A stretch of 37,253 nt of DNA from Candidatus Krumholzibacteriia bacterium (GTDB lineage Bacteria; Krumholzibacteriota; Krumholzibacteriia; JAJRXK01). Position 1 is the stretch's first letter, and each line of letters starts with the position of its first letter. The notes under the pieces are model-generated. The model was not told where the DNA came from. It was given only the letters and a program-made list of their open reading frames with translations, and searched no databases. Both the position numbers and the translations under genes were made by a program. Shown one piece after another: positions 4,545 through 35,670 of this stretch. The stretch is from NCBI GenBank assembly GCA_035268685.1, contig DATFKK010000022.1:1-37253 (forward strand), read 5' to 3'.

Positions 4545-4552
4545 GGTCGACC

Positions 4553-7803: not shown

Positions 7804-7827
7804 GATCTTCCTCCGCCCGGGCGACGT

Positions 7828-9758: not shown

Positions 9759-10783
9759 TCCGATCGCCTCCGCGCCGCGACCCAGCGCGCCTCGGCGTCC
9801 AGCCCTTCGGCCAGAGGGATCCGGGCCTCGAAGCCCAGGTCCTCGCGAGCCCGGCTGCCGTCGGCGTAGGTGTGTCGCACATCACCCTTCACGGTCTCGT
9901 GGTGCTCGATCTTCACCTCGTCGGCCACTCCGTGCTCGATCGCCTTCGTCTGCAGCACCTCGAGGGCCTCGCGCAACGAGATGCGCGCGCCGCCGCCGAT
10001 GTTGTACACACCGCAGTCGCTCGGGTCGTCGGCGGCCAGTAGATTCGCGCGCACGGCGTCCGCCACGAACGTGAAGTCGCGCGTCTGTTCCCCGTCGCCG
10101 TACACGACCCACGGACGACCGTCGGCCGCCGCCTCGAGGAACTTGCGGAAGGCCATGTCGGGCCGTTGACGGGGCCCGTACACCGTGAAGTAGCGCAGAC
10201 TACTGCTGGGAACACCGAAGTTCGCGGCGTAGAGCACGCAGAGGTGCTCGGCAGCGAGCTTGCTCACGCCGTAGGGGCTGAACGGCTGCTTGGGCACGTC
10301 CTCGACCACCGGATAGTGCTCCTGATTGCCGTACACACTGCTCGACGAGCTGTACACCAGCCTCCGGAACGGGGCACTCCGACGCCGCAGCTCGACCAGG
10401 GCCTCGAGCAGTCGCTGGGTCGCTCCGATGTTCGAATGGAGGTAGACGTCGAACTCCGCGCCCCAACTCGCACGCACGCCGGCCTGCGCCGCGAAGTGGA
10501 ACACGACTTCCCGGTCGGCGACGATGTCCACGAGGTCGACCGCGTTCATGTCGGCCTCGACCAGCCGGAACCGATCGGAACGGCGCGCGGCCTCGACGTT
10601 GGCTCGTTTCAGTGCCGGGTCGTAGTAGTCGCTGAAGACGTCGATCCCGGTGACGTCGTGACCGTGGGCGAGCAGGCTGTCGACCAGAGTGCTGCCGAGG
10701 AAGCCGGCGCAGCCGGTCACGAGCACGCGGCGCGGACGCCCACGCCACGCATCGGGCACGTCGACGTCGACCCGATCGATCAT
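9755..10783 (-). CDS. NAD-dependent nucleotide-sugar epimerase (UDP-glucuronate 4-epimerase-like)
   Basis: This is a 342-residue extended short-chain dehydrogenase. The Rossmann motif GCAGFLG lies at 24-30, and the catalytic YGVSK (Y171, K175) follows a serine-rich SSSSSVYG strand. Other family marks are HFAAQAGVR (96-104), SLRYFTVYGPRQRPDMA and YGDGEQTRDFTFV. The AAQAGVR and YGPRQRPDMA wording is closest to UDP-glucuronate 4-epimerases, although UDP-glucose 4-epimerase is a real alternative. It would act in the cytoplasm to supply one of the nucleotide sugars for the surrounding transferases. A short extra N-terminus (about 18 residues) precedes the Rossmann strand; the ATG at 10783 overlaps the preceding stop by 4 bp, which supports this start. 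Confidence 0.9.
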   Translation of the reverse strand: MIDRVDVDVPDAWRGRPRRVLVTGCAGFLGSTLVDSLLAHGHDVTGIDVFSDYYDPALKRANVEAARRSDRFRLVEADMNAVDLVDIVADREVVFHFAAQAGVRASWGAEFDVYLHSNIGATQRLLEALVELRRRSAPFRRLVYSSSSSVYGNQEHYPVVEDVPKQPFSPYGVSKLAAEHLCVLYAANFGVPSSSLRYFTVYGPRQRPDMAFRKFLEAAADGRPWVVYGDGEQTRDFTFVADAVRANLLAADDPSDCGVYNIGGGARISLREALEVLQTKAIEHGVADEVKIEHHETVKGDVRHTYADGSRAREDLGFEARIPLAEGLDAEARWVAARRRSE

Positions 10784-13383
10784 TCGCCTCCACCCCGGAT
10801 CGTGCCCTCGATCTCCTCCTCGACCGGCCCCAACGTGTCCGACTCGAGGCGCTCCAGTTCACGGAGGAAGCGGTCGAAGACTCCGCGCGCCGAGGTGTCG
10901 CCGGTCCTCTCCACGTAGGCGTCCACCTCCGCCTCGGCCTCGGCCGTGCGGCCGGCGAACAACAGCGAGCGGATCAGCAACTGCGTGTAGTCGACCGCGT
11001 CCGGTGCCTCTTCGACCAGATCGCGCGCCCAGGCCACGGCGGCGGTGTCCTCCCGCATCTTCAGCAACGACTCGCCGAGGTTCAGCAATGATTCGTTCGG
11101 ATGCTCCTGGTGCGGCATCAGCCGGCGACCGGCGTCGAGGGCCGACTCGATGTCGTTGCGCTGCAGGTACACGATCGGCAGCACGTCGACCGTCACCGGG
11201 AAGGTCGGGTCGAAGCGATAGGCCATCTCGAGGGCTTCGATCGCGAGATCGTAGTCCCCCGCGCGCGCACTCACGAAGCCCACCCTCGAGAGGGCCGCCG
11301 GGTAGTTGCGGAGCAGGTGCGCGGTCTGGGCGTCGCGGTAGATCGAGTCGTCCGCGTAGCCCTCTTCGTCGAGCACCGAGCGGAAGTCGTAGACCTCGGT
11401 GAAGGCGTGCCAGATCCGATCGGAGTTCCAACGGGGATTGCCGTCGTCACTGCGCTCCGGTGTCAACCGGTAGACCATGCCCTCCATCTCGAGGAAGGGT
11501 ACGAACATCCCGATGTTCTGGTTGGGCACGGTGATCGCGTAGTAGATCGGGCGCTCCCACTGGTTCTGCTGGACCACGTGCCACATGGTCTTGTCGCGGA
11601 TGTAGGCCACGCTCCCGTCGGGCAACCGCTCGGCCACGAGCAGCGTCGTGATGTTCCGGAAGCGGATGTCGGCCCGGCCCTCGATCTGTTCGTCCGTCCA
11701 CGTGATCGGCAGGCTCGGCTCGTAGTCGCGGAGCTGCTTGATGTACCAGGGCAGGTTGATCAGACTCAGGTTGACCACGCGCACGTCGGTGCGGAAGCCC
11801 TCGACCTCCTGCAGGTACCACAGCGGGAAGGTGTCGTTGTCACCGTTGGTGGCGAGGATTGCGTCGGGCGGCAGACTCTCGAGGATGTTCTTGGCGTAGG
11901 TGTAGGCGATCCAGTTCTCGCTTCGATCGTGCTCGTACCACTTCTGATGGTTCACCGGGGCCATGAGCACGGGCAGGACGGGCAACAGGAGCAGGACGGC
12001 CGTCGCCCCCTTCACGAAGAGCTGACTGCCCGCACGTCGGCCCGACCACGCGGCGCGCAGGAGACCTCCGGCACCCAGGCCGAGGAACAGGGCCGCGAAC
12101 TGGAAGAATCCGAAGTAGAAGTAGTCGCGATCCCGGACCTCGCTGTCCGTGAAGTTCAGCAGCAGGAGCAGTCCGACCGAGTTCACCAGCAGTGTCGTCA
12201 GGAACGCGACGCCCAGCCGCCAGTGGTTCTGGAGCTGGTAGACGATGCCCATCAGCCACAGAGCCGTCGGAATCGCGATGTCGGCGAAGGTGGGACTCTT
12301 CGCCGGCAGGAAGGTGAACTGCTGGATCAGCCCGATCACCTGTCGCCCGGCCAGCTGGCCCGTCTGCCAGATCGAGGTCCCCCACAGGTGACCGACCTGC
12401 CAGGCCAGCGGCGCCTCGCGCTCGAAGACACTGCGCGGCGGGTACTGCTCACGCCGCAGCACGCTCATGAGCGTGTCCCAGGTGGTGGGATCGGTCTGGT
12501 TGATCATCGGGTCGTGATGGGCCCGGATCAGCATGAAGAGGTGGACCGACAGCCCGACGACGAAGAGACCGATCCCCGCGAGGGCGAACCAGCGGTTCTG
12601 CTCGATCTCGTCCTTCTCTCCCCAGGTGATGCTGCGATAGGCCGCCCCCAGGATCGCCGCGCCGAAGAGGAACAGGACCAGCCCGTCCGGCGCACTCATG
12701 GTCGAGAGCACGAAGCCCCCAACGACGAGCGCCACCAGGAACATGTCGACGAGGCTCAGGGCGCGGCGATCGGCCAGGACCACGAGCACGAAGACACCCG
12801 GGAAGACGAGGATCGACCCCAGGTGGAACCCGACCGCCATGCCCATGAGATAGACGATCAGCAGCATGATCGTGGCCGAACTCGCCCGCTCCCGGATCTC
12901 CCACCAGCACACGGCCAGGAAGCTGACGAAGGCCATGGTGAAGGCGGACAGCGCGTAGACCTCGGCCTCGACGGCGTTGTTCCAGAAGGTGTAGCTGAAC
13001 GCCAGGAAGAGAGCCCCGACCGCTGCCCCGGCACGCGGGATCCAACCGGGGCTCGGGTCCTGCTTCTCGCTGGCCCAGTTCCGCTGCAGCCGCACCCCGG
13101 TCATGTACATGAAGGACACGGCCAGGGCCGAGAAGACCGCGCTCATCAGGTTGATCTTGTGCGCGATCCCGATCCCCAGTGGCAGCAGGCTGAAGACCTT
13201 GCCGACCAGCACGTACAGAGGGGTTCCGGGCTGGTGGGGAATCCCCAGCGTGTGCGACACGGCCACGAACTGCGCGCAGTCCCAGAAGTTGATCGTAGGA
13301 CTCATCGTGAGCGCGTAGACGGCCAGGCTCAACGCGAACAATGCCGCGGCGATCCGGTGGTCGGTGTCGGCGAACCAGCGCAT
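10780..13383 (-). CDS. DUF2723 polytopic membrane protein with C-terminal TPR region
   Basis: The product has 867 residues. The start chosen is ATG 13383: a GGAG lies 5 bases before it and the first membrane helix begins about 10 residues in. The frame stays open far upstream, but that part has no protein character. The N-terminal loop NFWDCAQF ... HQPGTPLY is the hallmark of the Bacteroidetes-type DUF2723 family (related to eukaryotic TMEM260, a protein O-mannosyltransferase); the D of WDC is the expected catalytic-type acid. A dozen or so membrane segments follow. The later GDNDTFPLWYLQEVEG and VVNLSLINLPWYIKQL motifs are also family-typical. From about residue 690 the protein becomes TPR-like helices. 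It probably transfers a sugar from a polyprenyl-phosphate donor to exported acceptors (inference). It is the first gene of the glycosylation operon. Confidence 0.88.
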   Translation of the reverse strand: MRWFADTDHRIAAALFALSLAVYALTMSPTINFWDCAQFVAVSHTLGIPHQPGTPLYVLVGKVFSLLPLGIGIAHKINLMSAVFSALAVSFMYMTGVRLQRNWASEKQDPSPGWIPRAGAAVGALFLAFSYTFWNNAVEAEVYALSAFTMAFVSFLAVCWWEIRERASSATIMLLIVYLMGMAVGFHLGSILVFPGVFVLVVLADRRALSLVDMFLVALVVGGFVLSTMSAPDGLVLFLFGAAILGAAYRSITWGEKDEIEQNRWFALAGIGLFVVGLSVHLFMLIRAHHDPMINQTDPTTWDTLMSVLRREQYPPRSVFEREAPLAWQVGHLWGTSIWQTGQLAGRQVIGLIQQFTFLPAKSPTFADIAIPTALWLMGIVYQLQNHWRLGVAFLTTLLVNSVGLLLLLNFTDSEVRDRDYFYFGFFQFAALFLGLGAGGLLRAAWSGRRAGSQLFVKGATAVLLLLPVLPVLMAPVNHQKWYEHDRSENWIAYTYAKNILESLPPDAILATNGDNDTFPLWYLQEVEGFRTDVRVVNLSLINLPWYIKQLRDYEPSLPITWTDEQIEGRADIRFRNITTLLVAERLPDGSVAYIRDKTMWHVVQQNQWERPIYYAITVPNQNIGMFVPFLEMEGMVYRLTPERSDDGNPRWNSDRIWHAFTEVYDFRSVLDEEGYADDSIYRDAQTAHLLRNYPAALSRVGFVSARAGDYDLAIEALEMAYRFDPTFPVTVDVLPIVYLQRNDIESALDAGRRLMPHQEHPNESLLNLGESLLKMREDTAAVAWARDLVEEAPDAVDYTQLLIRSLLFAGRTAEAEAEVDAYVERTGDTSARGVFDRFLRELERLESDTLGPVEEEIEGTIRGGGE

Positions 13384-13571
13384 TCGATCTCCGGTGACGA
13401 GCCCTCGGGAACGGCCTTCGGCGGCGCCTCGACCCCGCTCGAAGCGCCCGGCGCCGGCCAGGGCGGAGGGCCCCGGAGCGCACACGAGGGCGTAAGGTAG
13501 CACAGGCCACGCCAGGGCGACAGCGCGGGCCCGGCACTGCAACGTCGGCCGCCCGAATGGGTTCCGGCCGC
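13384..13571. other. 188-bp intergenic region between two minus-strand units
   Basis: No gene was found here. It contains the candidate promoter at 13494-13523. Just downstream of the flippase-like gene there is an imperfect GGCCG/CGGCC hairpin with an inner CCC/GGG stem (about 13546-13570). The hairpin lacks a T-run, so intrinsic termination of the upstream unit is uncertain. Confidence 0.4.
13494..13523 (-). promoter_or_regulatory. Candidate promoter of the glycosylation operon
   Basis: Reading on the minus strand, the extended -10 element TGCTACCTT has its hexamer TACCTT at 13499-13494. Eighteen bases upstream is a poor -35 (CTGTCG, 13523-13518). It would give a leader of roughly 100 bases before the ATG at 13383. 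The same TGnTAnnnT shape recurs before other genes in this window, which is the main reason for reporting it. Confidence 0.4.
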
Positions 13572-14582
13572 TCAGTCCTCCGTCCGTCGCCGGCGCAGCC
13601 GCAGGCGGCCGCGCACGAACATGACGGTGAACACGATCCCTCCGGCGAGGCTCACCGTCACCTGCACCAGGTAGGTGATCAGCTGCATCACCACCGCGCT
13701 GTCGGGATCGATGCCGATCTGCGGCATGAGCCGATAGGCCACCAGTTCGCGGATCCCCAGACCGTTGAACGAAATGGGCAGGACCACCGCCATGCCGAGC
13801 ACGGGAACCAGGACGTAGAGCTGCAGGACGCGCTCCCAGTCCAGGGACAGGCCCATGGCCAGGGCCACCAGCAGGTGGGTCGCGATCCGGAGGCTCTGCA
13901 CCAGGAGAGCCAGCAGCCCGAGCCGCAGGACGAAGGGAGGATCGCTCCGGTAGTCCTGGAGCACGCCGAGGAGCGCCCGGATCCGGCCCTTGCCGTGGCC
14001 TCCGCGCAGGCGTTCGGACACGCCGACCAGCAACCGTCCCATTCGTCCCGACAGGATCGCCACCGTCCCGGCGATCACGGGAACGGCGACCACCGCCAGC
14101 GCCCACCAGGGCAGCCCGGCGGGTGTCCCGCTCCCGAGCACCGCCCCGGCCACGAAGGCCAGGCCGGCCAGGGCGCTCAGCCCGAGCATCCGGTCGAGCA
14201 GAGTGCCCGCGATCGGGCGCGCCACCCGTCCGGTCTCGACGGCCACGTCGGCCACCTTGACCAGATCTCCACCCACGTTCGTGGGCAGGAAGTTGTTGAA
14301 GAACAGACCGACCCAGTACAGGGCGTGCAGGCGCCCGGCCGGAACGGTGAGTCCGGCGCGCCGCAGGATCAGGGTCCACTGCCAGGCACCCAGCACGGTG
14401 CTCAGCGCGAACACCAACAGCGGCGGCACCAGCAGCCACGGCGAGGTGGTGAGCACGCGGCGGACCTCGACCTCGAGTTGCCCACGGAGTTGCGCGTAGA
14501 GCCACCACAGCAGCGCGACGCTCACGGCCAGACGCAGGCCGGTCGCGAGGATCCCACGGACCCGCGGACTCAGCGCCGGCAT
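13572..14582 (-). CDS. Flippase-like membrane protein (LPG-synthase TM / UPF0104 family)
   Basis: The protein has 336 residues from the ATG at 14582, which lies inside the end of the upstream GT4 gene (13-bp overlap). The frame is open further upstream, but that part is Arg/Pro-rich shadow sequence, whereas from this ATG the hydrophobic protein starts at once. Seven to eight membrane segments are visible. They include VALLWWLYAQL, the family segment GLFFNNFLPTNVGGDLVKV (about 95-113), and PISFNGLGIRELVAYRL near residue 275. The family comprises the membrane half of MprF and stand-alone relatives in glycan and lipid loci, where lipid flipping is suspected. Standing behind a glycosyltransferase, a lipid-linked glycan is a reasonable substrate, but this is inference. 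No clear Shine-Dalgarno sequence is present, so translation probably depends on coupling. Confidence 0.85.
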   Translation of the reverse strand: MPALSPRVRGILATGLRLAVSVALLWWLYAQLRGQLEVEVRRVLTTSPWLLVPPLLVFALSTVLGAWQWTLILRRAGLTVPAGRLHALYWVGLFFNNFLPTNVGGDLVKVADVAVETGRVARPIAGTLLDRMLGLSALAGLAFVAGAVLGSGTPAGLPWWALAVVAVPVIAGTVAILSGRMGRLLVGVSERLRGGHGKGRIRALLGVLQDYRSDPPFVLRLGLLALLVQSLRIATHLLVALAMGLSLDWERVLQLYVLVPVLGMAVVLPISFNGLGIRELVAYRLMPQIGIDPDSAVVMQLITYLVQVTVSLAGGIVFTVMFVRGRLRLRRRRTED

Positions 14583-15679
14583 CGTTCCAGCATCCGCTCG
14601 GTCTCGACGGCGGCGTCGTCCCAGCTGAACGACCGGGCCCAGCGGACCGCGTTCTCGCTCATCATCCGCCACAGGGGCGGATCGGTCAGCAGGCTCAGCG
14701 CCTTGTTCGCGAAGTCCTCGGGATCGCCGTAGTCGGCGAGCAGGCCGGTCTCGCCCTCGCGTACCGAGTCCACGAGACCGGGCCGGCGGCTGGCCACCAC
14801 CGGAACCCCGCACTCGTTCGCTTCGATCACCGTCAGCCCCCAGCCCTCCTTCGGACTCGGGTTGAGGAAGAGATGGCTGCGGTACAGCGTCTCCACGATC
14901 TCGGTACGCGGAAGATGGCCGTGGAAGTGCACCGCCCCGGCGAGCCCCAGGGACGCGGCGACCTCGATCAGACGCAGACGGTCGGGACCGTCTCCGATCA
15001 CGTCCAGTTCGGCATCGGCGAAGACCTCGCGGATCCGGGCCAGGGCCTCGAGCACCACGTCCACGCTCTTGTAGCGGCGCAGGCGACCGAGGTGCACGAT
15101 CCGTGGTGAAGAGGCCCGCGGCGGTGGGTCGTCGAGCACGTAGCGTTCGTGATCCATCCCGCAGTGCACGACCTCGATGCGTTCACGGGACACGCCCCGG
15201 TGCACCAGGTCCTCGCGCGTGCTGTCGCTGATCGCCTCGAACCAGCAATTGCGGTAGATCCACGACAGCGGTTGCTCGCTCAGCCACACGTAGGTGGCGA
15301 AGGCGGGATTGGTCTCGCGAAAGACGGTGCGTCCGAACAGGTGCGGGATCACCGCCAGCACCGGAAGATTCGTGAACAGCGGCGCGTAGAAGGGCACCTT
15401 GTTGATGTCCTCGAGCACCACGTCGTAGGAATTGCGCTTCAACTCGTCGCGCAGCAGCGGGATCACGTTGAAGTTCGTGAAGGCCCAGTGGCCGCGCCGG
15501 CGGTAGCGGATTCCGTCGTCGGCGACCTCCTCGGCGGCGGCGCCGGGATAGCTGCAGCACAACCAGGTGACCTGGTGGCCGCGCTGCACCAGACGCCGCA
15601 GGATCTCGTGCAGGTGGACCTCGGCCCCTCCGGCCATGGGGTCCACGCGGTCGCGCCAGTTCAGGGCCAGGATCCTCAC
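14570..15679 (-). CDS. GT4-family glycosyltransferase (retaining, GT-B fold)
   Basis: The 369-residue protein starts at GTG 15679 (M-R-I-L-A-L-N-W), with a GGAG about 10 bases upstream. The N-terminal half has the glycine-rich AGGAEVHLHEILRRL segment (16-30) that receives the acceptor. The C-terminal half has VHLGRLRRYKSVDVVLEAL (195-213), GDGPDRLRL (229-237) and the EX7E motif, E278 and E286 in KEGWGLTVIEANE. These mark a GT4 retaining transferase such as those building mannose- or glucose-containing surface glycans. It is predicted to be cytoplasmic and membrane-associated. It lies 94 bp downstream of the methyltransferase and overlaps the flippase-like gene by 13 bp, so all three probably share a transcript. 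Donor and acceptor sugars are unknown. Confidence 0.9.
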   Translation of the reverse strand: MRILALNWRDRVDPMAGGAEVHLHEILRRLVQRGHQVTWLCCSYPGAAAEEVADDGIRYRRRGHWAFTNFNVIPLLRDELKRNSYDVVLEDINKVPFYAPLFTNLPVLAVIPHLFGRTVFRETNPAFATYVWLSEQPLSWIYRNCWFEAISDSTREDLVHRGVSRERIEVVHCGMDHERYVLDDPPPRASSPRIVHLGRLRRYKSVDVVLEALARIREVFADAELDVIGDGPDRLRLIEVAASLGLAGAVHFHGHLPRTEIVETLYRSHLFLNPSPKEGWGLTVIEANECGVPVVASRRPGLVDSVREGETGLLADYGDPEDFANKALSLLTDPPLWRMMSENAVRWARSFSWDDAAVETERMLERCRR

Positions 15680-23906: not shown

Positions 23907-24848
23907 TCAGTCCTCGTCGTCGGTGTCGAGCGTGAACAGACCCTCGGCGAAGGCCCCCGCGTCGAAGGGGGCGAAGTCGTCCGCCGTCTCCCCGGTCCCG
24001 ACGTAGCGCACCGGCAGGTCGAGTCCCCGCGCGATCGCCACCACGATCCCACCCTTGGCCGAACCGTCGAGCTTGGTCAGGAAGATCGCGTCGAGGGGAA
24101 CCACCTGCGCGAACTCCCTGGCCTGAACGATTCCGTTCTGCCCGGTGTTGGCGTCGAGCACGAGCAGGGTCTCGTGGGGAGCCTCGTCGACCTGCTTGCC
24201 CACCACACGCCCGATCTTCTCGAGCTCGCGCATGAGACCTTCCTTGGTCTGCAGGCGCCCCGCCGTATCGATGATCACCACGTCGTGGCCACTGGACTTC
24301 GCGTGCGCTATTGCGTCGTAGGACACCGCCGCCGGATCGGCGCCCATGTCCTGCTTGACGATGTCGACGCCGACGCGCTCCGCCCACAGTGACAACTGCT
24401 CGACCGCCGCGGCACGGAAGGTGTCGCCGGCGGCGAGAAGGACCCTGTGTCCCCGACTCCGGTACCAGGCCGCGAGCTTGGCGATCGAAGTGGTCTTGCC
24501 CACGCCGTTCACACCGACCATGAGCACCACGTGCGGGGGGCCTCCGGGCGCCGGAGGTTCCGAGGAAGCGCCTCCCAGCAGCTCGGCCACTTCCTCCTGC
24601 AACACCGCCACGACGTCCTCGACCGAAGCCGCCCCACCCTTCCCGCGGAGCCGCTTGCCCAGTCCCTCGGTCAGTTCGACGGCGGCGTCGACACCGACAT
24701 CGGCACCGATCAGGACCTCCTCGATCTCCTCGAGGAACTCGTCGCTGAGGAAGACCTCGCGCTTGACCACGGCGCTGAGCCGCGACACGAGGTTCGAACG
24801 GGTCTTGCCGAGACTCTTCTTGAGCTTCCGCAGGGCACCCAGGACCAC
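23907..24848 (-). CDS. ftsY: Signal recognition particle receptor FtsY
   Basis: The 313-residue GTPase starts at GTG 24848, preceded by GGAGGG at good spacing and 3 bp after the smc stop. It consists of the NG domain only, without the long acidic A domain of E. coli FtsY. The N domain helices run to about 100. The G domain has G1 GVNGVGKT (112-119), [12 protein letters not shown] (141-152), DTAGR (194-198), [10 protein letters not shown] (258-267) and the closing [13 protein letters not shown]. It would dock SRP-ribosome complexes at the membrane. A basic start with [15 protein letters not shown] could serve as the membrane-contact helix. smc followed by ftsY is a well-known gene pair. Confidence 0.97.
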
Positions 24849-24851
24849 GGA

Positions 24852-27800
24852 TCAGCCCTCCCCGTTGGCGGCCTGCAGACGCGCGGCCGGGTCACCGCGC
24901 TGCGCCTCGCGGTCGCGGGCAATGTCCTCGAGTGCGGCGATCGGATCGGCCTTGTCGAGCTGTTCGAAGCTGACCGACACGAGGCGACTGACGCCGTGCT
25001 CCTCCATGGTCACGCCGTAGAGGTGATCCGCCGACTCCATCGTCAGCTTGTTGTGCGTGATCACGATGAACTGCGTGCGCTCGGAGAAACGCTCGAGCAG
25101 CCGCACGAAGCGACCCACGTTCATGTCGTCGAGCGGGGCGTCGACCTCGTCGAGCAGACAGAACGGACTCGGCTTGATCAGATAGACCGCGAACAGCAAG
25201 GCGATCGCGGTGAGCGCGCGCTCGCCACCCGACAGCAGACTGACGCTGTCGATACGCTTGCCCGTGGGCCGTGCCACGACCTCGATCTCGCCCTCGAGTG
25301 GGTCGTCGGCGCGATGCAACACGAGATCGGACTCGCCGCCCTGGAAGAGGGTCGCGAAGATCTCCTTGAAGTTCGCGCGCACCTGCTCGTAGGTCTCGCG
25401 GAAGAGATTGCGTGCCGTGCGGTTGATGCGGTCGATGGCCTGGAGCAGATCTTCCTTGCTCTGCAGCAGGTCGTCGCGCTGCTTCTCGAGGAACTCCAGG
25501 CGTTCCTTCTTCTCGTCGTACTCCTCGAGCGCGACGAAGTTGACCGGACCGATCTGGTCGAGCTTGCGCTGCCGCTCGGCGAGCATCTCCTCGACCTGGT
25601 CCATCTGCACGGTGCCGAGTTCCTTGGCTCCGTCGTCGGCCTCGCGCACCAGCTCCTTCGGCAAGGCTTCCAGATCGAGGGAGACGAAACCCTCCTCGAC
25701 CGTCGTCTGGAACTTCTCGGTGATCCGGTCGGTCACGTTCCGGGTCTGGTACTCGAGTTCCGTGCGGCGTGTCTGCACCTCGTGCAGGGCGTCGCCGCGT
25801 TCGCGGCGTCGTTTCTCCACCGCTCGCAGTGAATCCTGGACCACCTCCACCTCGGCGCGGCGGGTCTCGATCGCTTCCTGGGCCTCGCGTAGGCTCTCCC
25901 GTCGCTCCTCGCGCTCGCGATGCATGCTGGTGACCCGTTCGGCGTTCTCGTCGACCGTGGCCCGCCACGTGATCAGATCCTGGTCCAGCGACGAGTCCTC
26001 GGACTGCAGGCGCTCGATGCGACCACGCAGGTCCTCGGACATGTTGGCCAGTCGCTCGAGGCGGCTGGCCAGCTCGCGGTCGGTGCCACGATCGTGGGTG
26101 AGTTGCAGACGCGCTTCGGACAGCGCCTGCCCCGCGGCGTCGCGCTGTTGCTCGAGATCCTGCACCTGCTCGGTCAACGCGGCGACACGCTGCTCGCTGG
26201 CCTCCTGATCGGCTCCGTGTCGGCCCAGCTCGCGGCGCATTCCGTCGACGCGCTGCATCAGCTCGTCGATCTCGCCGTGCACGCGCGTGCGTCCTTCGAT
26301 CGCGCGTTCGAGCTGTTTGTCCTCGCGCTCGAGCACGCTGCGGCGCGTGGCGAGCTCATGCGTGAGCTCGCCCACCGACTGCTGCACGTGGACGAGGTCG
26401 CGCCGGCACTGCTCCACCCGTTGCCGGGCGGACTCGACCTGGGCCGCAGCTTCGTGCTGCGTGCGCTGGCGCGACGCGACCATCTCGCGCTGCCGCTCGA
26501 CCTCGGTGGCGAGTTCCTCGACCTGGTCCTGCCGGCCGAAGAGCGCGAGCTGACGGCGCGCGCCGGCACCACCGCGCACGAGCCCGTCCTGACGCAGGAA
26601 CAGACCTTCGCGCGACAGGAAGCTGTATCCGTCGCCGGCATGGCGGATGGAAGCCTCGACCGCCTCGTCGTTCGTCTCGACCACGCGCACGCGATCGAGC
26701 CAACGGCGGAGCAGAGGAGACGCCTCTTCCTCGAGCCGCGCGAGATCCAGAGCCGGTCGGCCAGGCAATGAAGGATCGTGGCCGATGCCCTGACCACCCG
26801 CGCCGGTGTCGGCCAGGAAGCTGGCCATCCCCAGGCCTCGCTGCGCCAGGTGATCGGCCAGTTCCCGGGCATCGCGAACGTCGCCCACGAGCAACGCGTC
26901 GGCGTCCTCTCCGAACACGAGCTCGAAGGCGGCCTCGTAGCCGGGTTCGACCTTCAGCCGCTCGGCCATGGCGCCCCGCGTGCGCTCGCGGTGATCGGGA
27001 TCGCGCAGCAGCGCGGCCGCGCCGGCGCGGTAACCCTCGAGCTCGTCGGCGATGCGCGTAGCGATCTCGTGTCGACTCTCGAGACGGGCGAGTTCGTCGG
27101 TCGCCGACTCGCGCTGCTCGCGCGCATGTTGCAGAGCGTCCTCGGCCGCGCCCACGTCCTCCTGGGCCGCCCTCACCGCGCGCTCGACGTCGCTCTGCTC
27201 ACGCGTGGCGGACACCACGCGCGTCTCGAGATCGGCCAGTTCCTCGCGCAGGTTCCGCTTGGAGGTCTCGGCCTCCTGCACGGCGTGGTCGAGGCGCTCG
27301 GCCTCCTCGCGCAGACCCTCGAGGCGCGTCTCCGCGGTGGCGATGTCGCGCTTGTGGTCGGCCTCCTCCTTGAGGAAGCCCAGCGACAACTGCTGCGCCG
27401 CGGCGAGCTGGTTGCGTGCGTCCTCGTACTGCTCGAGCACGGCCCGAGCGCGCTCGTCCAGCTCGCGCACGAAACGCTCCCGCTCCTCGATCGTGGCCGA
27501 GGTCTCGTCGCGTTCCTGGCGGGCCGCGTCGTGCTCGTCGTCGATGTCCTGCAGTCGCGTGCGACTCCGATCGACGTCCTCGGCGATCTCGCTGCGCCGC
27601 CGCGTGGCAGTGTCGATCTTCTCGCGCAGCACCATGAGTTCGCCCTCGATGGCGTTGATCCCCGCCTCGAGTTCGCTCACCGCGTGGGCACGATCGCGAC
27701 GCGTCTGCTCCAGGGCATCGAGCTCGGGGCGCATCGTCTCGAGCGACGCGCTCAGCCGTGCGGCCTCGGCGTCGTCCCCCGCACCCTCGGTGCTCAGGGA

Positions 27801-28547
27801 CTGTTCGCGCTCGGTGAGTTCGTCGATCTGCCGGGCCAGGTCGCGCAGACGATGGTGCGCGCGGATGAGTTCGAGCCCGCGCACCTCGCCGAAGAGCCGC
27901 TGGTGACGCCGGGCCTTGCCGACCTGCCGGGCCAGGCTGCGCACCTGCTTGCCGATCTCCTCGATGATGTCCTCGACGCGCAGCAGGTCGCGCTCGGTGA
28001 GGTCGAGCTTCCGCAGGGCTTCCTTGCGCTTCACCTTGTAGCGCACGATGCCCGAGCCCTCTTCGAGGATGGTGCGGACCTTGTTCTCGTTCGGGTCGAG
28101 GACCTGCCCGACCACCTCCTGCTCGATCACCGAGTAGGCGTTGTTGCCCACGCCCGTGTCGTAGAAGAGGTCGCGGATGTCCTTGAGCCGGCACGGCGTC
28201 TTGTTCAGGAAGTAGTCGCTGTTGCCCGAGCGCGAGACGCGGCGGGTGATCGCCACCTCGTCGTAGGGCACGTTCAGACGCTGCGCGCTGTTGTCGAAGA
28301 CGAGACTGACCTCGGCCATCGACAGGGGCTTGCGCTTGCGCGTGCCCTTGAAGATGACGTCTTCCATCTTCTCGCCGCGGAGCTGTTTGGCGCTCTGTTC
28401 CCCGAGCACCCATCGGACCGCGTCGACCACGTTGCTCTTGCCGCATCCGTTCGGCCCGAGCACGGTGGTGATGCCGTCGCGGAAATCGAGCACGGTCCGG
28501 TCCATGAAGGACTTGAAGCCGATCATCTCGACACGCTTGAGTCGCAT
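24852..28547 (-). CDS. smc: Chromosome segregation protein SMC
   Basis: The protein has 1231 residues and the classic layout. The N-terminal ATPase half has Walker A GPNGCGKSNVVDAVRW at about 32-47. A first long coiled coil runs to about 500 and a hinge spans roughly 510-670 (LKVEPGYEAAFELVFGEDADALLV, SFLSREGLFLRQDGLVRGG). A second coiled coil follows. The C-terminal half has the signature LLSGGERALTA (1104-1114) and Walker B FCLLDEVDAPLDD (1128-1140). It would condense and align the chromosome with ScpA/ScpB, which are not in this window. The ATG at 28547 follows AGGAAGGA, and MRLKRVEMIGFKSF is the normal family start. An 89-bp gap separates it from the SPOR protein gene. Confidence 0.97.
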   Translation of the reverse strand: MRLKRVEMIGFKSFMDRTVLDFRDGITTVLGPNGCGKSNVVDAVRWVLGEQSAKQLRGEKMEDVIFKGTRKRKPLSMAEVSLVFDNSAQRLNVPYDEVAITRRVSRSGNSDYFLNKTPCRLKDIRDLFYDTGVGNNAYSVIEQEVVGQVLDPNENKVRTILEEGSGIVRYKVKRKEALRKLDLTERDLLRVEDIIEEIGKQVRSLARQVGKARRHQRLFGEVRGLELIRAHHRLRDLARQIDELTEREQSLSTEGAGDDAEAARLSASLETMRPELDALEQTRRDRAHAVSELEAGINAIEGELMVLREKIDTATRRRSEIAEDVDRSRTRLQDIDDEHDAARQERDETSATIEERERFVRELDERARAVLEQYEDARNQLAAAQQLSLGFLKEEADHKRDIATAETRLEGLREEAERLDHAVQEAETSKRNLREELADLETRVVSATREQSDVERAVRAAQEDVGAAEDALQHAREQRESATDELARLESRHEIATRIADELEGYRAGAAALLRDPDHRERTRGAMAERLKVEPGYEAAFELVFGEDADALLVGDVRDARELADHLAQRGLGMASFLADTGAGGQGIGHDPSLPGRPALDLARLEEEASPLLRRWLDRVRVVETNDEAVEASIRHAGDGYSFLSREGLFLRQDGLVRGGAGARRQLALFGRQDQVEELATEVERQREMVASRQRTQHEAAAQVESARQRVEQCRRDLVHVQQSVGELTHELATRRSVLEREDKQLERAIEGRTRVHGEIDELMQRVDGMRRELGRHGADQEASEQRVAALTEQVQDLEQQRDAAGQALSEARLQLTHDRGTDRELASRLERLANMSEDLRGRIERLQSEDSSLDQDLITWRATVDENAERVTSMHREREERRESLREAQEAIETRRAEVEVVQDSLRAVEKRRRERGDALHEVQTRRTELEYQTRNVTDRITEKFQTTVEEGFVSLDLEALPKELVREADDGAKELGTVQMDQVEEMLAERQRKLDQIGPVNFVALEEYDEKKERLEFLEKQRDDLLQSKEDLLQAIDRINRTARNLFRETYEQVRANFKEIFATLFQGGESDLVLHRADDPLEGEIEVVARPTGKRIDSVSLLSGGERALTAIALLFAVYLIKPSPFCLLDEVDAPLDDMNVGRFVRLLERFSERTQFIVITHNKLTMESADHLYGVTMEEHGVSRLVSVSFEQLDKADPIAALEDIARDREAQRGDPAARLQAANGEG

Positions 28548-28636: not shown

Positions 28637-30283
28637 TCAGCGGACGCGGACGACCCCCACCCAGTCGAGATCGAGGATCCCTCCGATGGGTGCTCGGGCC
28701 GCGAGGGCGTCGGCCCGCGAGTCGAAACGACCCACGAGCACTCGGTACCACTGCTCGCCGTCGATCACGGCGCTGCGCACGTCGGGCTGCCAACCGTGCG
28801 CGCTCTCGAGGCGCCGCGCCGCACCACGCGCGGCGGCCTCTTCGGTGAAACTCGCCACGTGCAGCGCATACCCCGGACCGACCGGGCGGGCCATGTCGCG
28901 TTCCCAGTCGGCGAGGCGGGGCTCGGTCTCGACCGGCTCGGGTTCGGGGAATTCGTCCTCGCTTCCGGCCGCCGGCGCCGGCGACTCCACCGACGCGGCG
29001 GGTTCCTCGGCCGCGGCTTCCTCGGCCTCTCCCCCGGCCGGGGGGGTGGGTGGAATCTCGCCTTCGCCCGTCGGCGTGCCGGCCACCGTCTCGTCGCCGC
29101 TCGCGACGGGCTCCTGCTGGGTCTGCGCGGCCGGATCGACCTCCGGGACCTCGTCCTCGACGACCGGCGGTGGCGCGACGGCGACGTCCACGGGAGGCGT
29201 GTCGTCGCGGGACGAGAGCCCCCACCATCCGACGAACGCGACCAGCGCGACGAGAGCGATCACGGCCACCACGCGGAACACCGTCGACGAGCCCCCCGCG
29301 TCGTCGGTCGGCTGTTCGAGCGCGCGTGGCCGCGACTCGGGCCATTCCCCGGCCCCCTGTTCCTCTCCTGTGCCACCGGTCTCCCGGTCGGACGTCGCGG
29401 AGAAGGGCACGGGGCGCTCGGCGGTCTCGTCGGTCGGAGCGTCCGTGGGCTCCGCGAGCGGCTCGGGTTCGTCCGGTCCTTCCGTCACGCCAGGGTGCTC
29501 CGCGGCCTGCCCGGCCTCGACGTCGAACACGTCGTCCACGCGCCGTTCGGCTGCATCCGGTCCAGCGTAGGTCATCAAGCCCGCCACCGGGACGTTGAGT
29601 CCGTGCAGATACTCCAGCAGTTCCTGCAGGCGCTCGCCGAGGCTCCGATCGAGGTGAAGACTGACGATCACCGAGTCGGCGTGCACGAGCAGGGGGTGGA
29701 AGCGGTCGTCGGCGATCCAGGCCGGTGCGAGGATCAGGACCACGTCGGCCTCGCCCCGGACCTGACCCACGAGGCGGAGCAGGTCCTCTTCCTGGAAGAG
29801 TCCCGCGTCGTCGGGCCGGTACGATCCCACGCTCACGAGGTCCACGCCGTCGACCGGGCCGTGGCGACGCACGGCCGACACCGAGGCCCCGTACTGCAGG
29901 ACGTCGACCAGGCCCTCGGCATCGAGATCCCGATCGGAGGCCCAGCGCGACAGTCCGACGTGACGGACGTCGGCATCCACGATCAGAACGCGTTGACCGC
30001 GCTCGGCCATGCGGCGACCCACGAGCACCGCGGTCTGCACGCGGGCGACGGGGTCCTCCTCGACGTCGGTGACCACGGCCACCCGGGCCTCGCCCTCGGC
30101 CGTCGGGTGGAGGTGGTCGACGAAGGCCTTCAACTCGTGGTGACGGACGTCGACGCTCCAGGGATCGCCGCGCTCGACCACCGGCCGCAGCGGGGAGTTC
30201 ACCACGGTGAAGTGACCGTGGCCGCCGTCGAGGTGCTTCAGGCGATCGTCGAGCCAGTTGCGCTCGGGGGAGGCGTCGTCCAT
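28637..30283 (-). CDS. P-loop-like (MinD/BY-kinase-type) protein without Walker A, fused to TM and SPOR domain
   Basis: The 548-residue protein has three parts. Residues 45-255 resemble the MinD/ParA/BY-kinase fold: VAVVTD strand (68-73), VLIVDADVRHVGLSRW (99-114, as in Walker A' of BY-kinases), and GVDLVSVGSYRPDDAGLF. The nucleotide-binding loop is replaced by TDVEEDPVA without the Gly-Lys-Thr/Ser, and the Walker B Asp is absent (VVLILAPAW). An acidic, Pro-rich stretch, a membrane helix (335-356) and a periplasmic Pro/Glu-rich linker follow. The protein ends in a SPOR domain (470-548, GYALHVASFTEE ... YRVLVGRFDSRADA). SPOR domains bind denuded peptidoglycan at division sites. I infer a non-ATPase cytoplasmic sensor or adaptor linked to septal cell wall. 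It begins 5 bp after selA and precedes smc. Confidence 0.85.
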   Translation of the reverse strand: MDDASPERNWLDDRLKHLDGGHGHFTVVNSPLRPVVERGDPWSVDVRHHELKAFVDHLHPTAEGEARVAVVTDVEEDPVARVQTAVLVGRRMAERGQRVLIVDADVRHVGLSRWASDRDLDAEGLVDVLQYGASVSAVRRHGPVDGVDLVSVGSYRPDDAGLFQEEDLLRLVGQVRGEADVVLILAPAWIADDRFHPLLVHADSVIVSLHLDRSLGERLQELLEYLHGLNVPVAGLMTYAGPDAAERRVDDVFDVEAGQAAEHPGVTEGPDEPEPLAEPTDAPTDETAERPVPFSATSDRETGGTGEEQGAGEWPESRPRALEQPTDDAGGSSTVFRVVAVIALVALVAFVGWWGLSSRDDTPPVDVAVAPPPVVEDEVPEVDPAAQTQQEPVASGDETVAGTPTGEGEIPPTPPAGGEAEEAAAEEPAASVESPAPAAGSEDEFPEPEPVETEPRLADWERDMARPVGPGYALHVASFTEEAAARGAARRLESAHGWQPDVRSAVIDGEQWYRVLVGRFDSRADALAARAPIGGILDLDWVGVVRVR

Positions 30284-30288
30284 CGGGG

Positions 30289-31758
30289 TCAGTCTCTTCG
30301 TTCGAGAGCCTTGGAGCCGCGGGCGGGCGAGATCTCCGAGAAGGCCCGCTCCATGCCCGCTGCCAGTTCCTCGAGTTCGTCCTCGCGTACGGAGCGCAGG
30401 TCGAACTCGACGCGATCATCGTCGATCCGCGCGAGGATCGCGGGGTCTCCGCGTCGCAGCGCACGGTGCAGGGCCTCGGCGGCGCGCCCACTGGGCGCGA
30501 CGCACTCGACCTGCGCGCTTTCGACGGGGTGTTCCGCGAAGGACCCACCGCCGATCGAGGCCGTCGATCGGGTGGCGGCGATCCGCCACCCCTCCGGTGT
30601 CCGTGGGGCCAGACGATCGGCCAGCGCGCCAGCGCGCCGGCGGAGCTCGGCCACGGAAGTCCCCAGCGCGTCGAAGAGGGGCAGAGCGGGCTTCGCGCGT
30701 TCCGGGGCTTCGGCGTAGCTGGCGAGGGTCGTCTCCAGCGCGACCAGGGCCATCTTGTCGAGCCGCAGCGCCCGCATGAGCGGGTGCCTGGCCATGCGCT
30801 GGACGAGTTCCTCCCGCCCGACCGCGAGACCCGCCTGGGGACCGCCCAGGAGCTTGTCCCCGCTGAAGGTCACGAGGTCGGCTCCGGCCTCGAGGGACTC
30901 GGCGACCGTCTGCTCCCCCGAGAGCCCGAACTGGCCGTAGTCATACAGGCTTCCGCTCCCCGCGTCAAAGACCAGGTGAGCTCCGCGCTCGCGGCAGATC
31001 GCCGCCAGGTCGGCGAGCGAGGCCTCTTCGTGGAAGCCCTCGATGCGGTAGTTGCTCGGGTGCACCTTCAGCACGAGGTCGCCCTCGGCGACCACCGCGG
31101 CGTAGTCGCGCGCCGAGGTCTTGTTGGTCGTGCCGACCTCGACCACGCGCGCGCCGGTGGTGTGCATGAGTTCGGGCATCCGGAAGCTCCCGCCGATCGC
31201 CACCTGTTCGCCGCGCGACACGATCATCGACCGGCCCCGCGTCGCCAGGGCCCGGACCGCCAACCACAGTGCGGCGGCCCCGTTGTTCACGGCCACTCCG
31301 GCCTCGGCGCCGGTGAGCAGCTGCAGCCACTCGCCCACGCGCGCGTTCCGGCTACCGCGTCGGTTGCTGCCGATGTCGATCTCCAGTGCACACGGCTCAC
31401 CGGCCACACGCCGGACCTCGTCGGCCACGCGCTCGGACAGACGCGCCCGGCCGAGATTCGTGTGCAGGATCACGCCCGTGGCGTTCAGGACGCGCCGCAA
31501 CTTCGGACGGGACAACGACTCCAGGCTCTCACTCAAACGTCTTTCGCAATGCCCGAGAAGGGCCTCCCGCGTGGGCTCGTCCTGTCCGTACCGCCGGGAC
31601 AGACCCCGACCCCGACGCAGAGCGCTCCGCTCTTCGTCCAGGATCCCTCGCGCCAGGTTCACGATCACGTCGCGCCGCCAGTGGCGGAGCAGGCCCTTGA
31701 CGGTGCGACGTTCGAGAAGCGCGTTCAGGGAGGGAAGTCGACGCAGCAGTTCCTGCAT
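30289..31758 (-). CDS. selA: L-seryl-tRNA(Sec) selenium transferase
   Basis: The 489-residue PLP enzyme starts at ATG 31758 (MQELLRRLPSLNALLE, the usual SelA N-terminus). The frame is open another 44 codons upstream, but that part runs through a repeat and the promoter. SelA converts Ser-tRNA(Sec) to selenocysteyl-tRNA(Sec) with selenophosphate. Key segments are RRVLNATGVILHTNLGRA (88-105), NNGAAALWL, HPSNYRIEGF, FDAGSGSLYDY, and SGDKLLGGPQAG, where K302 is the expected PLP lysine. Its presence implies that the organism decodes UGA as selenocysteine, but selB, selC and selD are not in the window. It is the promoter-proximal gene of the nine-gene unit ending with nusB. Confidence 0.96.
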   Translation of the reverse strand: MQELLRRLPSLNALLERRTVKGLLRHWRRDVIVNLARGILDEERSALRRGRGLSRRYGQDEPTREALLGHCERRLSESLESLSRPKLRRVLNATGVILHTNLGRARLSERVADEVRRVAGEPCALEIDIGSNRRGSRNARVGEWLQLLTGAEAGVAVNNGAAALWLAVRALATRGRSMIVSRGEQVAIGGSFRMPELMHTTGARVVEVGTTNKTSARDYAAVVAEGDLVLKVHPSNYRIEGFHEEASLADLAAICRERGAHLVFDAGSGSLYDYGQFGLSGEQTVAESLEAGADLVTFSGDKLLGGPQAGLAVGREELVQRMARHPLMRALRLDKMALVALETTLASYAEAPERAKPALPLFDALGTSVAELRRRAGALADRLAPRTPEGWRIAATRSTASIGGGSFAEHPVESAQVECVAPSGRAAEALHRALRRGDPAILARIDDDRVEFDLRSVREDELEELAAGMERAFSEISPARGSKALERRD

Positions 31759-31773
31759 GGATCGAGGCCACCG

Positions 31774-31825
31774 GTCCGTCGGAGCGAGAGGCCGGAGCTG
31801 GAAGCCGGAACCAGAGGCCGGACCT
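31774..31825 (-). repeat. 13-bp imperfect tandem repeats in the selA leader
   Basis: On the minus strand four adjoining 13-base units lie between the selA promoter and its ATG: AGGTCCGGCCTCT, GGTTCCGGCTTCC, AGCTCCGGCCTCT and a weaker CGCTCCGACGGAC. The first and third differ at one base. The common core is TCCGGC-YTC. Function is unknown. Confidence 0.6.
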
Positions 31826-31861
31826 GGAGGTAGGTCGAGTCCCGGGCCGGTCGGCCGCGGC

Positions 31862-31890
31862 AAGCTAACACACGCCCGACGGGGGGTCAA
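31862..31890 (-). promoter_or_regulatory. Promoter of the selA-nusB unit
   Basis: Reading on the minus strand, TTGACC (31890-31885) is followed by a 17-base spacer and TAGCTT (31867-31862); the -10 is extended (TGTTAGCTT). The -35 matches the consensus at 5/6 positions. The predicted leader to the ATG at 31758 is about 98 bases and contains the 13-bp repeats. Confidence 0.65.
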
Positions 31891-32701: not shown

Positions 32702-32716
32702 GTCGGCGCCCTCAGC
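32697..32716. terminator. Short hairpin containing both convergent stop codons
   Basis: GCTGAG (32697-32702) pairs with CTCAGC (32711-32716) around an 8-base loop. The stop codons of the tonB-like gene and of the LpoA-like gene both lie in the arms. There is no T-run on either side, so it is at best a weak bidirectional terminator. Confidence 0.3.
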
Positions 32717-34556
32717 GTGACTCGAAGTCGTCGCCGAAGGGCACGCGCAGGGTGTCCGACGGGGCCGGCGCCGGGGCTCCGGCGGGGAACAGTTCGACCG
32801 GGAAGGCCGCCACCTCGCTGTCCTCGATCATGCGCAGACGCTCCAGTCCGCGCGCTCCGTCGGCCTCCTCCACCGATCCCGCCATGAGACCGGTCTCGAC
32901 GCGGTCGCGCAGCCGGGTCCGGGTGTTGCCGCTCTCGCGGTCCAGACCGGCGATCACCCGGCGCACCGCGTAGTAGGTCTTCAGATCGATGCCGTTCGGA
33001 TTCCGCGGCGTGGCACGGTGGCGTCGCGACCACAGGGTGTCGAAGTGCGCCTCGTCGGACTCCGAGATCAGCGCCGCGCTGCTCGGGAAGATCGCCCGGT
33101 GCATGCTCGGACCCACCTCGCGCGTGAGCAGTTGGTTGTCCCAGCTCGACATGCCCAGCAGTTGGGCGCGCACGTCGTGGAACACGAGCTGGGGCGCGAT
33201 CAGACGCATGACCCGCGTGCCGGCCGGCACGAACAAGGCCTCGGGCGCGAACGCGCGGATCTCCCGCATGACGCCACGGAAGTCCGTGGCGCTGGGATCG
33301 AAGGGACGGCGCACCACCACGCGGCCGCCCAGACGCTGCACGTCGGCCGCGAACCGGTCGGCGAGCAGCTCCCCGTCGGCGCCCTGCGGGTACAGGATGC
33401 CGTACCGGGTACGTCGCAGCGCCTCCACCCCGGCCCGGGCCAGCATGGCGGTCTCGACGTCGTCGGTCAGCGTGGTCTGGAAGACGAACTCGCCGAGTTC
33501 GGTGATGGTTTCCTTGGTCGCCGTCGGCGAGATCAGCGGCACGCCGCGTTCCTGGCACAGCGTGGCGACGGGAACCGTCGTCGACGACAGGAGGGCGCCC
33601 ACGACGGCGATCACGTTGTCGTTCTCGATCAGGCGCCGCGCGGCCTTCACGGCCACGACCTCGTCGCTCCGCGTGTCCAGGGCCACCAGCTGCACGTTCT
33701 CGCCGGTGGCGCGATTGTGCTCCTCGACCGCGAGCATGGCGCCGTCGAACATGGCCTGTCCGAGCACGGCGTTGGGTCCCGAGAGCGGCGCGAGCAGACC
33801 GATGCGATCGGCGAGTCCCACGTCCAGATCATCGGCGGCGTCGATGCCAAAGTCCTGACCGATCTCGGCGATCAGGGCACGGGCATCCTCCACGAACCGG
33901 CTGCGGGGATACTGGCGGACGAACCGCTCGAGACGCTCCACGACGCGCTCGGGGGCCTCGCCCTCCTCGTAGCGCCGCTGCGCCACGATCCAGGCCGCCG
34001 TGCTTCCGATCACCGAGCGCGGATGGCGCTCCCAGAGTTCTTCGATCTGGTCGGTGGCGAGGGTCTCCTCGAGCAGGGTGCGCAGTCGCTCCCGTGCCTC
34101 GACACGGCGCGGGTCTTCCGACTCCGCCGCTTCGTAGAAACGCACCAGGGCGTCGGCCTCGTCGAGCCATCGTCCGAGATCCTTCGCGACCACCGCCTGG
34201 CTCCAGCGGCTCTCGGCCAGGTACTCGGACTCGGGGTACAACCGCCCCAGACGATCGAACAGGCGCACCGCCAGGTCGAGATCTCCCGTGCGCGCCGCGG
34301 CCCGGCCGGTCAGCAGCAGGACGTGGTCCTCGTTCCGGGCACCCGCGTAGCGATCGAGCCAGATCAGACCGGCCTCGCGCAGGGCCAGGGCGTCCTCGTA
34401 GGCGGGATCGGTGAGGAGCGCCCGGTAGGACGTCGCCGCTTCGCGCTGGGTCGCCGGATCGAGCTCTCCGGTGATCGCCCCCCGCCGCCCGGGCGGGCTG
34501 GTGCAGCCCGACACGACGGCGACCGCGAGCAGGCCCATCAGGGCCAGGCGGCTCAT
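32712..34556 (-). CDS. LpoA-like lipoprotein: TPR region plus periplasmic-binding-protein domain
   Basis: The 614-residue protein starts at ATG 34556 with a lipoprotein signal (LLAVAVVSGC, Cys18). The long frame open upstream lies in other genes. Residues ~35-245 are helical TPR-like repeats (RLYPESEYLAESRWSQAVV, QYPRSRFVEDARALIAEIG). From about 265 a type-1 periplasmic-binding fold follows: IGLLAPLSGPNAVLGQAMFDGAMLAVEEHN, VVGALLSSTTVPVATLCQERGVPLISPTAT, and AEALFVPAGTRVMRLIAPQL-like strands. This TPR plus binding-domain order is that of LpoA, the outer-membrane activator of penicillin-binding protein 1A. A solute-binding role is less likely because no ABC transporter is nearby. It overlaps the carbonic-anhydrase-like gene by 4 bp. 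Confidence 0.82.
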   Translation of the reverse strand: MSRLALMGLLAVAVVSGCTSPPGRRGAITGELDPATQREAATSYRALLTDPAYEDALALREAGLIWLDRYAGARNEDHVLLLTGRAAARTGDLDLAVRLFDRLGRLYPESEYLAESRWSQAVVAKDLGRWLDEADALVRFYEAAESEDPRRVEARERLRTLLEETLATDQIEELWERHPRSVIGSTAAWIVAQRRYEEGEAPERVVERLERFVRQYPRSRFVEDARALIAEIGQDFGIDAADDLDVGLADRIGLLAPLSGPNAVLGQAMFDGAMLAVEEHNRATGENVQLVALDTRSDEVVAVKAARRLIENDNVIAVVGALLSSTTVPVATLCQERGVPLISPTATKETITELGEFVFQTTLTDDVETAMLARAGVEALRRTRYGILYPQGADGELLADRFAADVQRLGGRVVVRRPFDPSATDFRGVMREIRAFAPEALFVPAGTRVMRLIAPQLVFHDVRAQLLGMSSWDNQLLTREVGPSMHRAIFPSSAALISESDEAHFDTLWSRRHRATPRNPNGIDLKTYYAVRRVIAGLDRESGNTRTRLRDRVETGLMAGSVEEADGARGLERLRMIEDSEVAAFPVELFPAGAPAPAPSDTLRVPFGDDFESR

Positions 34557-35089
34557 GCGTGCTCTCCGCTCGCGCGCTGGGCGAGATACACGGCCGCCAT
34601 CTCCCGGTACTCGGCCGCGTGCTCCCGCCGCGCTTGACGGTTCTCCGCCGGCAATTCCTTCTTCACCTTGGCGGGAATGCCCACGACCAGGGAATCGGGC
34701 GGCACTTCGAGACGCTCGGGGACCATGGCCGCCGCCGCCACGATGCTGAAGCTCCCGATGACGACCAGGTCGAGGAGCGTGCTCTTCATGCCGACGAGAG
34801 CTCCCTCCTCCACCCGCGCACCGTGGATCACGGCCTGGTGGCCGACGGTGACGTCGGGGCCGAGCCAGGTCTGGGAATGGCCCTCGGTCGCGTGCAGCAT
34901 GCAGCCGTCCTGCACGTTGCTGCCCTTGCCCACGTGGATCCGGCCGCAGTCGCCGCGGAGCACGCTGCCCCACCAGATCGAGGCGTCGTCCTCGATCACG
35001 ACGTCGCCGATCAGCACCACGTCGTCGGCCAGGTACACATTGCGACCGATCCGGGGAACCATGCCCTTGTAGGGCAGCAGGATGGCCAC
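34553..35089 (-). CDS. Gamma-carbonic-anhydrase-like hexapeptide-repeat protein
   Basis: The 178-residue protein starts at GTG 35089, with AAGGAGG 7-8 bases upstream and the preceding stop 2 bp away. Left-handed beta-helix repeats run from about 13 to 125, then a C-terminal helix. The three zinc-ligand histidines are present: H66 in MLHATEG, and H84 and H89 in VTVGHQAVIHG. The RGDCGRIHVGKGSNVQDGCMLH segment is standard for the YrdA/PaaY/CaiE branch. Many members bind zinc but have weak or no carbonic anhydrase activity, so the name is a family label. The protein is cytoplasmic. Its place between a DUF151 gene and a lipoprotein gene gives no clear clue to substrate. Confidence 0.92.
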   Translation of the reverse strand: MAILLPYKGMVPRIGRNVYLADDVVLIGDVVIEDDASIWWGSVLRGDCGRIHVGKGSNVQDGCMLHATEGHSQTWLGPDVTVGHQAVIHGARVEEGALVGMKSTLLDLVVIGSFSIVAAAAMVPERLEVPPDSLVVGIPAKVKKELPAENRQARREHAAEYREMAAVYLAQRASGEHA

Positions 35090-35091
35090 GC

Positions 35092-35670
35092 TCAGTCCTC
35101 CTTCTCGTCGTCTTCGTCGTCTTCGTCGGCTTCGTCGGCCGGCTCCTCGCCCGCTCCCGCCTCGCCTCGCTCGACCTGGCGCATGAGTTCCTCGAGCGAG
35201 TCGTGGACCGCGCCCTCGGGCTCGGCTTCGGCGGCTGCACTCTCCGGAGGCGGCGCCTCCTGGATCTCGATCAGGTGGTCCTGCTGACTCTCGAGCAGTG
35301 CCTGCGTGAGATAGATGGGACACTTCACCCGTACCGCGAGGGCGATCGAATCGCTCGGCCGCGCGTCGATCGACAGGATCTCCTGGTCGCGCTCGAGGAA
35401 GATCCGAGCGAAGAAGGTGCTGTCCTCGATCGTGGTGATCACCACGCGGGCCACCACCGCCCCGAGGCCGTGGATCACGTGTTGCAGCAGATCGTGCGTC
35501 AGCGGGCGTTCGAAGACCTGGTTGCGCAGCGCCATGTTGATCGAACTGGCCTCGGCAGGACCGATCCAGATCGGTAGATAGCGTGTCACGCCCGGGATCT
35601 TGAGCAGCAGGATGTGACTGCCCGGGTTCTTGGGGTCGGGCAGCAGACCGCCGACCTTGACCTCGACCAT
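35092..35670 (-). CDS. Bifunctional nuclease (DUF151) family protein
   Basis: The protein has 192 residues from the ATG at 35670 (MVEVKVGGLLPDPKN). Twelve further codons are open upstream but add nothing family-like. The single DUF151 domain covers about 1-135: HILLLKIPGVTRYLPIWIGPAEASSI, RPLTHDLLQHVI, IEDSTFFARIFLE and SIDARPSDSIALAVR. Plant BFN1-type and Thermotoga relatives gave the family its name, and nuclease activity is not established for most bacterial members. Residues ~140-192 form an unusual Ala/Glu-rich then strongly acidic tail (DEADEDDEDDEKED), probably disordered. It sits 16 bp behind the DUF2914 gene. Confidence 0.92.
   Translation of the reverse strand: MVEVKVGGLLPDPKNPGSHILLLKIPGVTRYLPIWIGPAEASSINMALRNQVFERPLTHDLLQHVIHGLGAVVARVVITTIEDSTFFARIFLERDQEILSIDARPSDSIALAVRVKCPIYLTQALLESQQDHLIEIQEAPPPESAAAEAEPEGAVHDSLEELMRQVERGEAGAGEEPADEADEDDEDDEKED

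Follow-up and report, generated by a model that had tools for sequence, protein, structure and literature searches.

What protein is encoded by the gene that lies between selA and smc in Candidatus Krumholzibacteriia, and what could it do there? The window analysed, 37,253 nucleotides of contig DATFKK010000022.1 (assembly GCA_035268685.1), carries this gene at 28637..30283 on the minus strand. Re-derivation of the reading frame, strand and coordinates gave a protein of 548 amino acids which, like its orthologues, consists of a pseudo-BY-kinase domain, an acidic linker, a transmembrane helix, a further linker and a C-terminal SPOR domain. The only strong helix is the most hydrophobic 19-residue stretch of the protein (residues 334–352 approximately; 29228..29284, minus strand; mean Kyte-Doolittle hydropathy 2.56), its position is conserved in all members, and it agrees with the helix placed at 335–356 in a preliminary description made from the sequence of the window. 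We read the family protein as a type II (N-in) protein of the inner membrane, and the architecture supports the bitopic topology, with the SPOR domain outside, given in that description.

The identity of the cytoplasmic domain (residues 46–245; 29549..30148, minus strand) emerged from its family. The single sequence matched Pfam AAA_31 weakly, below the cut-off both as the whole protein (E = 0.02) and as the domain alone (E = 0.0014), and relatives were therefore brought in. A profile of the N-terminal domain built from 40 sequences recovered the BY-kinases BceF (4.3e-15), VpsO (7e-10), CapB (1e-9) and Wzc (5e-9) from the PDB, whereas MinD/ParA structures scored 2e-3 or worse. Besides a generic AAA model, the most frequent NCBIfam matches were BY-kinase models (TIGR01007, 2.5e-8), all of which stay below their curated cut-offs for the window protein. 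Two AlphaFold models (four sequences each) reached a mean pLDDT of 69.5 with a pTM of 0.75 and a mean pLDDT of 62.1 with a pTM of 0.66; the first Foldseek matches of both are BceF, Wzc, CapB and VpsO, and the model with the higher pTM matches BceF and Wzc at 9e-10 to 6e-9. The confidence of these models is moderate, yet sequence and predicted structure concur on a BY-kinase fold. The preliminary description had called the domain MinD/BY-kinase-like and had proposed both a profile search and a structure prediction. The search found a relation to P-loop folds with BY-kinase structures on top, and the models match the same structures; the BY-kinase half of the description therefore stands, while MinD as the closest family is ruled out by the profile and fold scores. 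The deviant Walker A of MinD-type proteins, KGGxGKT, is absent from the family, in whose alignment no Walker A is found.

The state of the nucleotide-binding motifs was read from a joint alignment of 50 family homologues with 12 BY-kinase paralogues of the same phylum. At Walker A, all 12 paralogues read GEG(K/T)(S/T), two of them with Thr in place of the Lys, and all 12 possess the Walker B Asp; none of the 50 homologues has GK(S/T) at the aligned columns, and none has the Walker B Asp. In the window protein, the lost Walker A loop falls at residues 73–87 (DVEEDPVARVQTAVL; 30023..30067, minus strand), where PVARVQ (78–83) occupies the positions of GEGKST and Arg81 that of the Lys, and the lost Walker B falls at residues 179–195 (29699..29749, minus strand), where Leu185 replaces the Asp. 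The Walker A' strand VLIVDADVRH (residues 99–108; 29960..29989, minus strand) is retained, its Asp103 being present in 50/50 homologues. Both the retention of this strand and the loss of the GK(T/S) loop and the Walker B Asp had been noticed beforehand in the one sequence, and both now extend to the family. Since the same losses occur alongside the same retained Asp103 in all 50 homologues, they reflect more than chance. In one lineage a glycine-rich relic of the loop persists without its Lys (e.g. HEPGE, EPGQG), pointing to an active enzyme as the ancestor. Residues D103, G124, D127, S134, G153 and S154 (window numbering) are invariant in the 40-member alignment, Ser134 closing a family signature, YGAS in the window protein and YGSS in many members (residues 131–134; 29882..29893, minus strand). 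Many of the BY-kinase paralogues end in tyrosine-rich tails of the YYYDYKYYGY type; in the family, the linkers of 40 members contain 15 Tyr in 2743 residues, and the window protein has none. The family is homologous to BY-kinases yet fails their catalytic definition, and it should not be filed under that name.

From these losses we infer that the cytoplasmic domain has given up nucleotide binding. Because the Walker A' Asp is retained and many members have Arg in the column of the Walker A Lys, unusual ligand binding is conceivable: the domain might still bind a nucleotide or another phosphorylated ligand non-canonically, through Arg81 and Asp103, and switch conformation in the manner of TadZ/CpaE. 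The Walker A of TadZ is itself deviant, yet TadZ, an atypical member of the MinD family, binds ATP (PMC13170226), and a hand count of the alignment places Arg in the Lys column of 36 of the 50 homologues, all 50 of which share Asp103. However, 14 of the 50 lack that Arg, no member preserves a complete glycine-rich GK(S/T) loop and the Walker B Asp is lost in all, so that we regard such binding as unlikely.

The SPOR domain (residues 466–548; 28640..28888, minus strand), previously placed at 470–548, is recognized by Pfam PF05036 over residues 471–531 (E = 5.8e-11; 43 bits against a cut-off of 21). All of the 40 aligned members whose C-terminus is complete carry it, preceded in each by one transmembrane helix and a linker, and the family SPOR profile recovers the SPOR domain of FtsN (1uta) at 6.4e-5. 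The FtsN residues used for comparison concur with the 1uta alignment. Septal localisation of FtsN SPOR requires Q251, S254, W283 and R285 (PMC6895207). The Ser, Trp and Arg of this face are retained in 39/39, 38/39 and 39/39 family members, respectively; the glycan-contacting Gln is His in 36 of 39 (His475 in the window protein) and Trp in the other three. This replacement is a caveat for glycan binding by the family SPOR domain, which, judged from the sequences, is likely though not assured because the main-chain contacts and a basic residue would remain.

The protein is fixed throughout Krumholzibacteriota. A search with the single sequence found it in 48 of 58 relatives, and the N-domain profile detected the gene in 74 of 80 genomes of the phylum at E-values of 2e-16 or better. 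In three further genomes, all of one family (G006, G010, G017), a divergent copy ending in SPOR lies between selA and smc; the apparent absence from one family (f4) was rejected, three of its four genomes having such divergent syntenic copies. Three genomes were scored as having a broken or missing locus and not as true absences: in two, smc lies at a contig edge or on a very short contig (G014, G066), and in the third smc was not found (G040). Outside the phylum, 26 genomes yielded no match above 71 bits and no equivalent; one of their matches, read through, is a conventional kinase of the Wzc type that has HEGKS as well as a Tyr tail. None of 101 genomes from the phylum of a Fibrobacteres locus gave a match at 1e-20, in a search with no positive control inside that group. 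In all, about 126 genomes from beyond Krumholzibacteriota yielded no equivalent, in a sample that did not extend to the close sister phyla Eisenbacteria, Latescibacterota and Zixibacteria.

Conservation extends to the gene order. In the window, selA (30289..31890) lies upstream, its stop ending 5 nt short of the gene's start codon, smc (24852..28547) is the next gene downstream and ftsY (23907..24848) follows smc, all on the minus strand and identified by Pfam and synteny; the best relatives of this smc in named genomes are from Krumholzibacteriota MAGs (61% and 55% identity). The preliminary description had remarked on smc and ftsY and suggested looking beside smc in related genomes. Their adjacency proved real and conserved, and selA can be added to it: the gene sits between selA and smc on the same strand in 39/39 fetched loci in which both are readable, and ftsY follows smc in 32/32 testable loci. 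In one single-contig genome (G015) the gene seemed to be separated from smc, which is explained by a run of N inside smc (L190 8059-8157). Another match to smc lies some 450 kb from there, so that the assembly has a scaffold gap or mis-join at this point. This conserved order may reflect co-transcription only. Elsewhere in the window, a protein of 842 aa that matches periplasmic-binding proteins and LppC is encoded upstream of selA (32712-35240, minus strand), two reading frames of 848 aa (5257-7803, minus strand) and 426 aa (131-1411, plus strand) have no Pfam match at 1e-5, and a 1242-aa TMEM260-like (protein O-mannosyl-transferase) membrane protein (10780-14508, minus strand) belongs to a cluster of glycosyltransferase and epimerase genes that spans about 2418-15679.

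The same gene order bears on a second explanation, that the protein acts at the septum to control the synthesis of envelope polysaccharide or of peptidoglycan, for example as a pseudo-subunit in rings of active BY-kinases. BY-kinases govern polysaccharide assembly, a putatively glycan-binding SPOR domain is fused to this one, ordinary BY-kinases occur elsewhere in these genomes and the window itself contains the glycosyltransferase cluster (2418-15679). The gene is tied, however, to selA, smc and ftsY and not to polysaccharide genes, and SPOR proteins act in division generally; known ones all function in division or morphogenesis (PMC6895207). We consider a role of this kind distinctly improbable.

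Covariation between the protein and its neighbours was also considered. At full length, the partial distance correlation between the N-domain and SMC was 0.59, above that with SelA or FtsY. With alignment length matched, it was 0.49, against 0.42 for FtsY and SMC and 0.35 for SelA and SMC, differences within error that do not single out SMC, and distance covariation was dropped as evidence for an SMC link. The N-domain diverges more quickly than its neighbours do, at a mean distance of 1.95 compared with 1.16 for SMC. This divergence, which is very strong in one family, might be expected if the domain served chiefly as a folded spacer in a plain SPOR protein of the FtsN/DamX/DedD type working in the periplasm, but no genome whose locus could be read has lost the domain, and its invariant polar residues D103, D127, S134 and S154 would be superfluous in a spacer, making this the least probable explanation and a very doubtful one.

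From the established architecture, fold, motif loss, conservation and synteny, we infer a septal, catalytically inactive protein and propose, as a somewhat probable reading, that it is an adaptor of the divisome and not an enzyme, localised by its SPOR domain and binding a cytoplasmic partner through its inner domain. By binding denuded glycan where the septum constricts, the periplasmic SPOR domain would concentrate the protein there. The BY-kinase-derived domain would no longer phosphorylate or hydrolyse ATP; its fold and its conserved Walker A', GxxD, YGxS and GxGS elements would be kept as a protein-binding surface, with which it could recruit or restrain a cytoplasmic partner at the septum. 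The identity of this partner is a matter of speculation, the most plausible candidates being the ParB-SMC or FtsZ/FtsA machinery. SMC, ScpB, ParA and ParB are encoded in the same genome. In S. pneumoniae the active BY-kinase CpsD has a septal location and interacts with ParB (PMC4574921), and this precedent, together with the adjacency to smc, makes a chromosome-segregation partner plausible by analogy. No MinC_C domain scored above the Pfam cut-off in 78 Krumholzibacteriota genomes, which gave short sub-threshold matches only, while control genomes were positive. A bolder and rather unlikely extension of the adaptor model is that, in a phylum without recognisable MinC, a transmembrane pseudo-BY-kinase couples the septum to the chromosome, its SPOR domain reading septal glycan on the outside and its inner domain keeping hold of ParB-SMC or the Z-ring, as a catalysis-free analogue of CpsD and ParB. 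If the adaptor model is correct, a BY-kinase has lost its catalysis, become a septal adaptor and been retained across an entire uncultured phylum, offering one testable protein for the coupling of septation to chromosome organisation where MinC is absent. Annotators also gain a family name for the gene that has stood without annotation between selA and smc.

What is new here is a SPOR-type envelope protein bearing a pseudo-BY-kinase; a literature search found no paper naming both “SPOR domain” and “BY-kinase”. The cytoplasmic domain shares its fold and sequence family with the BY-kinases Wzc, CapB/CpsD, BceF and VpsO, but it has no Walker A, Walker B Asp or Tyr tail, its membrane helix follows the domain, and SPOR replaces the Wzz-type periplasmic domain. 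FtsN, DamX and DedD of E. coli are likewise bitopic and N-in, with one transmembrane helix, a low-complexity linker and a C-terminal SPOR domain; to this plan the family adds a folded BY-kinase-like cytoplasmic domain of 200 residues, and it has His for the glycan-contacting Gln. A second protein combining an ATPase-fold domain, a transmembrane helix and SPOR is encoded in the same genome (G000:C163, L156 328-1812, plus strand), but it is of another AAA class, ExeA-type, with an intact GLGKTT loop, and lies directly upstream of a BY-kinase. The Walker A of that BY-kinase reads GEGTTT, with Thr in place of Lys. TadZ/CpaE, atypical MinD/ParA proteins, also belong to the P-loop superfamily and use a deviant Walker A in localisation (PMC13170226); unlike the family, TadZ still binds ATP, serves pili and is not linked to SPOR. 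The CpsD-CpsC system of Streptococcus pneumoniae also places a BY-kinase-fold domain at the septum, a location that is predicted for the family, and its CpsD binds ParB (PMC4574921). CpsD, however, is active as a kinase, has its membrane partner in a separate protein and controls capsule, whereas the Krumholzibacteriota family has lost the catalytic motifs and has its putative septal anchor fused to the domain itself.
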